NCBI GenBank assembly: GCA_947476625.1
Contig: CANJRA010000005.1
Coordinates: forward strand, 1-64,000
Length of the DNA: 64,000 nt
Direction of reading: 5' to 3'
From: Fidelibacterota bacterium
GTDB lineage: Bacteria > Pseudomonadota > Alphaproteobacteria > Rhodospirillales > Rhodospirillaceae
Shown piece after piece: positions 53,411 to 55,555 of this stretch. The position numbers and the translations under genes were made by a program. Numbering within the stretch: the stretch's first letter is position 1; each line of letters opens with the position of its first letter. The notes beneath the pieces were generated by a model. The model was given only the letters and a program-made list of their open reading frames with translations. It had not been told where the DNA came from and did not search any database.

Positions 53411-54046
53411 GTGCCCGGACCCAGCTTTCGTTTCGAGCGCGCTGTGCTGAAACGTCTGCCGGATGCGATTATCGCGGGCGTCGACGAAGTGGGGCGCGGA
53501 CCTCTCGCCGGGCCGGTGACGGCGGCCGCAGTCATTCTCGATCTAGAAAAAACGCCCGCGGCGCTGCTCAAAGGTCTCGACGACTCAAAAAAACTCTCGG
53601 CGGCACAGCGCGAGGAATTGTACGCGGCGCTGTATGCTTGCGGCACGGCAGTGATTGGCCTCGGTCAGGCCGGCGTGCTTGAAATAGACAGCATCAACAT
53701 TCTGAATGCGTCGCACCGCGCCATGGAACGCGCCGTCGCTTCACTGGGGCGCGTCGTGACGGTGGCGCTGGTGGACGGTAACCGTGCGCCGAAACTCGAT
53801 TGCGAGGTCGAGACAATCGTTCAAGGCGACGGCAAAAGCTTTTCGATTGCCGCGGCTTCCATTGTTGCCAAGGTTACCCGCGACCGTCTGATGACCGCGC
53901 TTGCCGCGGCGCATCCGGGGTATGGCTGGGACACCAACATGGGCTACGGCACGCGCGAACACATCGACGGCATCGCGCGGCTCGGCGTCACGCCGCATCA
54001 TCGGCGTTCTTTTGCGCCGGTGCGTGACTACATCGCAGGCCAATAG
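53411..54046 (+). CDS. rnhB: Ribonuclease HII
   Basis: 211 aa from a GTG at 53411. IIAGVDEVGRGPLAGPVTAAAVIL (catalytic Asp-Glu), GLDDSKKLSAAQRE, ALVDGN, and ASIVAKVTRDRLM...YGWDTNMGYGTREH. Removes RNA from RNA:DNA hybrids. Directly upstream of ccrM, an order common in alphaproteobacteria. Confidence 0.95.
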   Translation: MPGPSFRFERAVLKRLPDAIIAGVDEVGRGPLAGPVTAAAVILDLEKTPAALLKGLDDSKKLSAAQREELYAALYACGTAVIGLGQAGVLEIDSINILNASHRAMERAVASLGRVVTVALVDGNRAPKLDCEVETIVQGDGKSFSIAAASIVAKVTRDRLMTALAAAHPGYGWDTNMGYGTREHIDGIARLGVTPHHRRSFAPVRDYIAGQ

Positions 54047-54118
54047 TCGGTGCAGGTCGCTTTAATTTAAGCAGCCGCCGATTTTTTTTATCAGTGGCCA
54101 CACCTCGCGCTAGGGGTT

Positions 54119-54141
54119 GAGTCCGCGATTCGGCGGGACTC
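54119..54141. promoter_or_regulatory. Cluster of GANTC methylation sites upstream of ccrM
   Basis: GAGTC at 54119, GATTC at 54127 and GACTC at 54137, three sites in 23 bp, with a fourth (GATTC) at 54201-54205. The outer two lie within inverted arms TTGAGTCC...GGACTCAA. GANTC is the target of CcrM. In Caulobacter, methylation of sites in its own leader helps switch ccrM off, so the same feedback is likely here. Confidence 0.65.
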
Positions 54142-54285
54142 AACATCTTGTGTCTCTCTTCCTCTTCACTGCGAGCTTTATTAAACAATGATAAGGATTT
54201 GATTCTTATGATGCTTCCTAACGGGCCCCCGCTGTCCTGAGAGACGGCGCGACGCTAAAAAAGGGAGCCTTGTTGGGAAGTCCTG

Positions 54286-54360
54286 CCCCAACTTCGGCCG
54301 TATGCCCGCTTTCGGCATAGGCGCGGAGTTGCGGGGTGGGGAGGGTAATCGCCCCGAGTT
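54286..54360 (+). ncRNA. Structured ccrM leader with alternative pairings
   Basis: CCCCAACT (54286-54293) can pair with AGTTGcGGGG (54327-54336), enclosing a second stem GCCgTATGCC / GGCATAGGC (about 54297-54320) with one bulged G. The same GGGG (54333-54336) can instead pair with CCCC at 54352-54355, a hairpin followed by AGTTTT that looks terminator-like. The two folds exclude each other. No known riboswitch consensus is met. Confidence 0.4.
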
Positions 54361-54382
54361 TTCCGGGACGCACAAAGCTTGA

Positions 54383-55555
<1,173 letters not shown>

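Follow-up and report, generated by a model that had tools for sequence, protein, structure and literature searches.

A predicted NrdR-like operator with embedded methylation sites and a structured RNA leader upstream of ccrM in a Rhodospirillaceae genome

We have analyzed the region upstream of ccrM, the gene for an adenine DNA methyltransferase, in a 64,000-nucleotide stretch of a Rhodospirillaceae genome (GenBank assembly GCA_947476625.1, contig CANJRA010000005.1, positions 1 to 64,000), referred to here as the window. The GANTC sites clustered between rnhB and ccrM on balance probably form two ccrM promoter modules, a distal NrdR-type operator and a proximal CtrA-type promoter. In our best reading, ccrM is a predicted target of NrdR, a repressor of ribonucleotide reductase genes that senses dATP, and the operator is a predicted substrate of CcrM. 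An NrdR-like operator with embedded methylation sites would tie the marking of DNA to the supply of its precursors.

Results

GANTC cluster and NrdR-like operator

Four GANTC sites stand between rnhB and ccrM, and an initial annotation of this DNA had placed them correctly at 54119, 54127, 54137 and 54201. Site 1 (GAGTC, 54119-54123) and site 3 (GACTC, 54137-54141) are conserved in the genus and, as that annotation had also seen, lie in inverted arms; the arms are perfect 9-bp copies in the repeat GTTGAGTCC-N11-GGACTCAAC (54116-54144). Site 2 (GATTC, 54127-54131) lies between them and site 4 (GATTC, 54201-54205) farther downstream. The inverted repeat occurs once in the home genome (2,616,184 bases in 50 contigs), as does the pattern GAGTC-N2-6-GANTC-N2-7-GACTC, for which the reversed-pattern control gave no copy. 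Background rates were taken from 464 kb (464,000 bases) of the home genome, where 932 GANTC sites, or 2.01 per kb, bear out the random rate of about one per 500 bp that had been assumed. Three sites within 30 bp were found at two places in this sample, the ccrM triplet and L195:7965-7989 (C3 of the same genome). For at least four sites in the 343-bp intergenic stretch between rnhB and ccrM, the Poisson probability is 0.005. The site count alone is just moderately unusual; it is the triplet and its conservation that stand out. Over the whole window GANTC is rarer than expected: dinucleotide shuffles predict 245.6 sites, and 136 are present.

The DNA surrounding the triplet resembled the NrdR box consensus, which prompted a test with a matrix derived from nrd promoters only. 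This single-box matrix was built from 26 boxes, or 13 pairs hand-picked at 31-32 bp from the nrdA and nrdJ promoters of the genus; it holds no letter of ccrM, and spacing is not part of it. Box 1 (GCGCTAGGGGTTGAGT, 54107-54122) is weak, with a score of 0.3 and GG rather than AT at its centre, and its last four bases together with the next base form the GAGTC of site 1. Box 2 (ACTCAACATCTTGTGT, 54138-54153) is strong (12.1) and is separated from box 1 by a 15-bp spacer that contains site 2; its left half is overlapped by site 3. This pair (54107/54138) is the best at 31-32 bp in the window, scoring 12.4 with the next at 8.9. In the scan of the 464 kb, nrdA (33.1) and nrdJ (22.2) lead, and the ccrM pair ranks fifth among distinct loci.

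The pair was then sought in 119 ccrM upstream regions, 61 from the family, 18 from the order and 40 from the class. Across spacings of 18 to 59 bp, pairs scoring at least 12 were concentrated at 31 bp (22) and 32 bp (23), with 0-5 at every other spacing. The real matrix counted 44 of 119 regions, a number that none of 200 column-permuted matrices attained; these averaged 1.2 and peaked at 33. Pairs of at least 10 at 31-32 bp were found in 33/61 family, 10/18 order and 11/40 class regions (10/40 without L213, described below), and pairs of at least 15 in 13, 9 and 9 regions, respectively. At the threshold of 10, four other pairs of spacings gave 0-3, and rnhB coding controls read at 31-32 bp gave 0/47, 0/15 and 1/32. 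Both boxes are strong in the best pairs (L136, 24.9; L130, 23.6; L245, 25.3), each box of L136 and L130 scoring above 10. According to the available part of PMC12051234, NrdR binds two 16-bp boxes, mostly with a spacer of 15-16 bp. The window likewise has a spaced pair of 16-bp palindromes, with nrdR in the same genome. Box 2 matches and has the central AT; box 1 does not, and the site is for this reason called NrdR-like rather than a proven NrdR operator.

Among ccrM pairs scoring at least 8, 35 of 38 from the family, 9 of 11 from the order and 6 of 11 from the class have a GANTC in the spacer or a facing half-site, and 21, 5 and 1, respectively, have one in both facing half-sites. At these positions GANTC is absent from all 21 nrd operators reaching the same threshold (22 regions scored, one below 8; nrd operators were read in the home genus alone). 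The form ACTC departs from the nrd half-site at its third base, and the G before it completes GACTC; hence the GANTC-bearing inverted arms noted in the initial annotation. Another dimeric protein with a similar palindrome could be proposed for the distal element, given that box 1 deviates from the nrd boxes, that the facing half-sites read TTGAGTC/GACTCAA rather than the nrd form, and that NrdR binding here is predicted from sequence. We consider such a protein improbable: NrdR agrees with the match to a matrix built from nrd promoters alone and with the helical spacing, and 66 of 73 family genomes carry nrdR, 64 of them above the cut-off.

Several observations weigh against NrdR as a regulator of ccrM. 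Box 1 is weak in the genus, scoring -5.9 to 6.5 in the 15 regions scored and lacking the central AT, and binding of Escherichia coli NrdR was 530-1000 times weaker with one of its two boxes mutated (available part of PMC12051234); box 2 of E. coli nrdAB likewise has a non-canonical centre (-AG-), yet binds within the pair (PMC12176259, in the part available). Four loci in the 464 kb outscore the ccrM pair, namely nrdA, nrdJ, C4:57072 (14.1) and C8:20378 (12.6), as does a pair at ctrA (20.2) outside that sample, and 2 of 100 shuffles of the region itself reach the ccrM score. The pair scores 7 or less or is missing in the genera g4, g12, g13, g14, g15, g17, g45, g47 and most of g16, and it is negative in all 13 scored loci of Bosea, Methylobacterium, Methylorubrum and Hyphomicrobiales. 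One box-like word at nrdJ of the home genome holds GATTC, in a pair at 33 bp. As to position, NrdR boxes in nrd operons are said to overlap the polymerase site (PMC12176259, same part), and at ccrM about 27 bp separate box 2 from the CtrA-like box downstream of it, which places the operator upstream of the core promoter. Furthermore, sequences of one genus are related, so that counts within it are not independent, and the nrd operators come from that genus alone. The wider proposal, that ccrM is under direct NrdR control in much of the Alphaproteobacteria and that in this family the operator half-sites are CcrM substrates whose methylation gates NrdR binding, is put forward as tentative, with the odds somewhat against it.

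Box pairs were also seen at other genes. At L256:1025-1071 (C24 of the home genome, 5' of ctrA) an NrdR-like pair scores 20.2 at 31 bp, its box 2 overlapping the ctrA start codon. Among the best 30 ctrA loci of 51 genomes with ctrA, five reach 12 at 31 bp and seven at 32 bp, and 0-2 do so at other spacings between 20 and 49 bp; these pairs occur in the home genus and the near genera g7 and g9. Coding sequence takes up half of box 2, and box 1 may equally be a -10 element, so the ctrA pair may be chance plus constraint. In the gcrA locus the best pair scores just 1.7. A weaker pair (12.6) occurs at L209:15378 (C8 of the home genome), about 2 kb from nrdR and near open reading frames that by eye are glyA- and rpiB-like.

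Conservation of the GANTC sites

The initial annotation proposed comparing ccrM upstream regions among relatives, and GANTC positions prove to be conserved: all three distal sites are kept in 15 of 16 genus regions, L009 keeps two of the three, and a seventeenth region at a broken contig end (L114) also carries the triplet. Across species the middle site reads GATTC, GACTC, GAGTC or GAATC, with GA and TC constant and the neighbours changing. Because its N varies over all four bases, it is the CcrM site that is kept and not a fixed word. This bears on a rival explanation in which the inverted repeat would act in RNA, as a hairpin or terminator downstream of rnhB. The segment 54100-54160 does fold at -24.3 kcal/mol (z -3.05), but the arms are not followed by a run of T, the middle site stays GANTC despite its base changes, and box spacing is kept; we give this explanation very little credence.

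At least one core-promoter GANTC is kept in 20 of 20 aligned leaders. A proximal pair, GATTC-TTAT-GATTC, follows in relatives, and its second member is a decayed fifth site in the window (GATGC, 54210-54214), which the alignment shows as GATTC in most relatives. Upstream of ccrM, GANTC reaches 15.0 sites per kb in the family regions, 21.8 in the order and 17.3 in the class, against the genome rate of 2.01; every family and order region has at least one site, and 2 of 40 class regions have none. An earlier survey of alphaproteobacterial promoters gave means of 0.4-1.5 sites per promoter and, in the part available, drew no conclusion on control (PMC2877005). Such density does not set this organism apart, since closely packed GANTC ahead of ccrM is the rule in the regions read from the order and common in those from the class.

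Predicted core promoter

A simple consensus scan of the ccrM upstream stretch found no sigma-70 promoter, and the promoter was placed by conservation. On the forward strand a CtrA-like box, TTAA-N7-TAAG (54181-54195), occupies the -35 position and is followed by site 4 in the spacer and a candidate -10, TATGAT (54207-54212), the window reading TTAAACAATGATAAG-GATTTGATTC-T-TATGAT. From conservation, transcription is predicted to start near 54219, which is about where the conserved RNA stem begins. The triplet would then span about -100 to -78, ahead of the core promoter, which would itself contain the site at 54201. The initial annotation had assigned the sites to the ccrM leader; with this start all four would fall outside the transcribed leader. 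The module TAA-N2-9-TTGANTC occurs in 30/61 family, 13/18 order and 13/40 class regions, and the promoter-like word TTGAC-N1-4-GANTC in 15/61, 11/18 and 23/40, with none in reversed sequences in either case. As in GcrA-type promoters, the site at 54201 adjoins the candidate -10 of the predicted promoter in a genome that encodes GcrA; as in CcrM-regulated promoters, conserved GANTC lies in the control region. In order-level ccrM loci (e.g., L133, L141 and L145), TTGACG-N2-GANTC-N6-GACTC-AT stands very close to the ATG, and the ccrM mRNA of such loci may be leaderless.

Because the sites are conserved in position and CcrM, CtrA, GcrA and NrdR are all encoded, a methylation-sensitive ccrM promoter is likely. 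This much of the enhanced methylation switch put forward initially is supported; its leader location is not, and the dense sites are shared with other genomes. The mechanism is plausible but incomplete and misplaced, the NrdR-like operator and the structured RNA leader having been missed. Classical CcrM feedback alone, acting through GANTC via GcrA or CtrA and hemimethylation as in Caulobacter, would make the box pattern incidental. The presence of ctrA and gcrA agrees with it, and sites 54127 and 54201 fit the motif YGAKTCK (from the available part of PMC7987155), whereas 54119 and 54137 do not. Such feedback predicts neither two 16-bp boxes at 31-32 bp nor the box pairs that exist without GANTC inside (L146, L238 and L245), and as a full account we find it doubtful.

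Structured leader RNA

The segment 54206-54430 folds at -109.5 kcal/mol (z -5.05). On the forward strand, covariation outlines a stem, P0 (54213-54281), that encloses hairpin P1 (54230-54249). It is followed by hairpin P2 (54282-54345), defined by folding, alignment and covariation and carrying the conserved GGGGTGGGGAGGG (54333-54345), and by a second conserved element in the alignment, GGGACGCACA (54365-54374). P1 is paired in 100% of the 20 aligned leaders, with two-sided changes at 5 of its 7 pairs. The structure formed by P1, P2 and P3 beats 500 of 500 shuffles in paired cells, in cells changed on both sides and in covariation score; its two-sided pairs are equalled in number by 4 of 500 shuffles and its further pair types by 86 of 500. 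Every slid version of it scores lower. For P0, strands matched within species give -18.2 kcal/mol and mismatched strands -12.4, and none of 20,000 permutations was as good, a result that is not a strict probability since the P0 sequences are related.

A model of the leader (R1), searched with E values up to 0.01 and strict filters, has a single match in each of 26 genomes among the 73 of the family, spread over 5 of 23 genera; 20 of these matches built the model and 6 are new. The match precedes ccrM on the same contig in 25 of 26 cases and lies at a contig end in the other. A general small RNA was rejected on these grounds, given the single copy per genome and the position just before ccrM in 25 of 26. 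No credible Rfam match for the leader was found in the window stretch, where mir-379 was a chance hit, or in seven relatives, where mir-598 was a chance hit elsewhere. In the alignment GGGGTGGGGAGGG varies less than the strand it pairs with, which hints at a second role; it contains three G tracts, for which a G-quadruplex was considered. Just before ccrM, folding reveals a long terminator-like hairpin on the forward strand (54381-54422). It was rejected as a conserved terminator, being seen in part of the genus and having a weak T tail. A riboswitch or attenuator is a possible identity for the leader.

Genes and genomes sampled

Both rnhB and ccrM lie on the forward strand. The ribonuclease HII gene rnhB (53411-54046) scores 234.5 bits against NCBIfam NF000595 (cut-off 167) and carries the Pfam domain RNase_HII; its C-terminus is recognised 5' of ccrM in many relatives, where the rnhB-ccrM synteny is kept. 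The ccrM product (54437-55555) has N6_N4_Mtase and RAMA domains. It reaches 633.5 bits against NF050803, under the cut-off of 830; homology is strong and synteny is kept, and the methylase specificity is predicted. Full-length copies are 81-92% identical within the genus, and the most similar ccrM among named records come from metagenome-assembled genomes labelled Rhodospirillaceae, Caenispirillum or Marinimicrobia, the last label being probably wrong. We found ccrM in 56 of 61 relatives with E up to 0.001, including three by weak matches alone (G027, G036 and G037), in 67 of 73 family genomes at 1e-50 and in 82 of 114 class genomes at 1e-80. The home genome encodes CtrA (NF045991, 397 bits, cut-off 350), GcrA (PF07750, 61 bits, cut-off 26.9) and NrdR (TIGR00244, 180 bits, cut-off 124.65).

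The class sample comprises 40 new genomes of the 82 with ccrM, mostly those with the best-scoring ccrM matches, one short contig being skipped. The genus sample comprises 19 genomes, from which 16 upstream regions were read together with ccrM. L114, which lies at a contig end without ccrM, is omitted from the score tables. Also omitted were twelve loci that duplicate whole-genome loci, L062 and L065, which have no upstream side, and the contig-start loci L019 and L039. The 20 remaining named loci were scored separately, L042 and L043 repeating L099 and L101. Where the end of rnhB was not recognised, the last 330 bases were used instead in the box-pair survey and the last 350 in the upstream-region survey. 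This substitute hid the triplet of L011, which is visible in other readings of the region. L213, a class region with unrecognised rnhB end, and L044 resemble rnhB coding sequence by eye.

Discussion

In the scheme that we infer for NrdR binding, start site, methylation effect, sign of regulation and leader function, the distal module (54107-54153) would be a tandem NrdR-type operator with CcrM sites built into its facing half-sites and spacer. The proximal module (54181-54214) would be a CtrA-type promoter with GANTC on the upstream side of its -10; most aligned relatives carry a GANTC on each side of that element. NrdR loaded with ATP and dATP would bind the distal operator when deoxynucleoside triphosphates (dNTPs) are plentiful and adjust ccrM together with the ribonucleotide reductase genes, repression being assumed. 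Methylation of the facing half-sites by CcrM would alter NrdR binding, and methylation of the proximal sites would alter promoter use by CtrA, GcrA or RNA polymerase. The period of ccrM expression would thus be set by dNTP use and by replication, through hemimethylation, and the structured leader may add a third control after initiation.

In the available part of PMC4409342, NrdR represses nrd genes and activates topA in Pseudomonas aeruginosa. Deletion of nrdR in Caulobacter gave 10% more spread in soft agar, which its authors relate to raised dNTPs (PMC12186491, as available). The word ccrM does not occur in the main text of that paper, nor do ccrM or methyltransferase in the main text of PMC5343134, both in the form available. 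We found no literature on NrdR acting on ccrM or GANTC in a search that did not extend to the 2005 NrdR regulon paper, the RegPrecise tables or supplements.

These predictions bear on ccrM timing outside Caulobacter and on the coupling of DNA methylation to replication and dNTP supply. If true, the NrdR-ccrM link would bring an epigenetic gene into a regulon whose known members are mainly ribonucleotide reductase genes. Methylation sites placed in operator half-sites that answer to nucleotides would couple metabolism to an epigenetic clock in a new way, and a single operator would then act as an epigenetic switch responding both to dNTP supply and to the passage of the replication fork. The link is testable in culturable relatives. 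Separately, the covarying leader RNA is a candidate for controlling a DNA methylase after initiation.

Four known systems invite comparison. With the Caulobacter crescentus ccrM promoter, which is activated by CtrA and depends on hemimethylation, the window shares a CcrM gene, a CtrA-type box and GANTC in the control region, and it adds the distal NrdR-like pair with embedded GANTC and the structured leader. Its GANTC sites are upstream of or in the predicted promoter, whereas those of Caulobacter ccrM are in the leader. With the NrdR operators of nrd genes it shares two 16-bp boxes, a spacer of 15-16 bp and the same matrix; it differs in that the target is ccrM instead of a ribonucleotide reductase gene, the facing half-sites carry GANTC, the boxes lie upstream of the core promoter and box 1 is weak. 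P. aeruginosa topA, an NrdR target other than a ribonucleotide reductase gene, is likewise a DNA-maintenance gene; according to the available part of PMC4409342 it has a single box and is activated, whereas ccrM has a spaced pair and its control by NrdR is predicted. The GcrA-bound methylated promoters of mipZ and ctrA P1 (PMC3667746, in the part available) also have GANTC in the promoter and GcrA encoded; ccrM differs in having more sites and an added operator, and its link to GcrA is read from sequence alone. Set beside these systems, the new element is the predicted methylation-bearing NrdR-like operator on ccrM, together with the structured leader.
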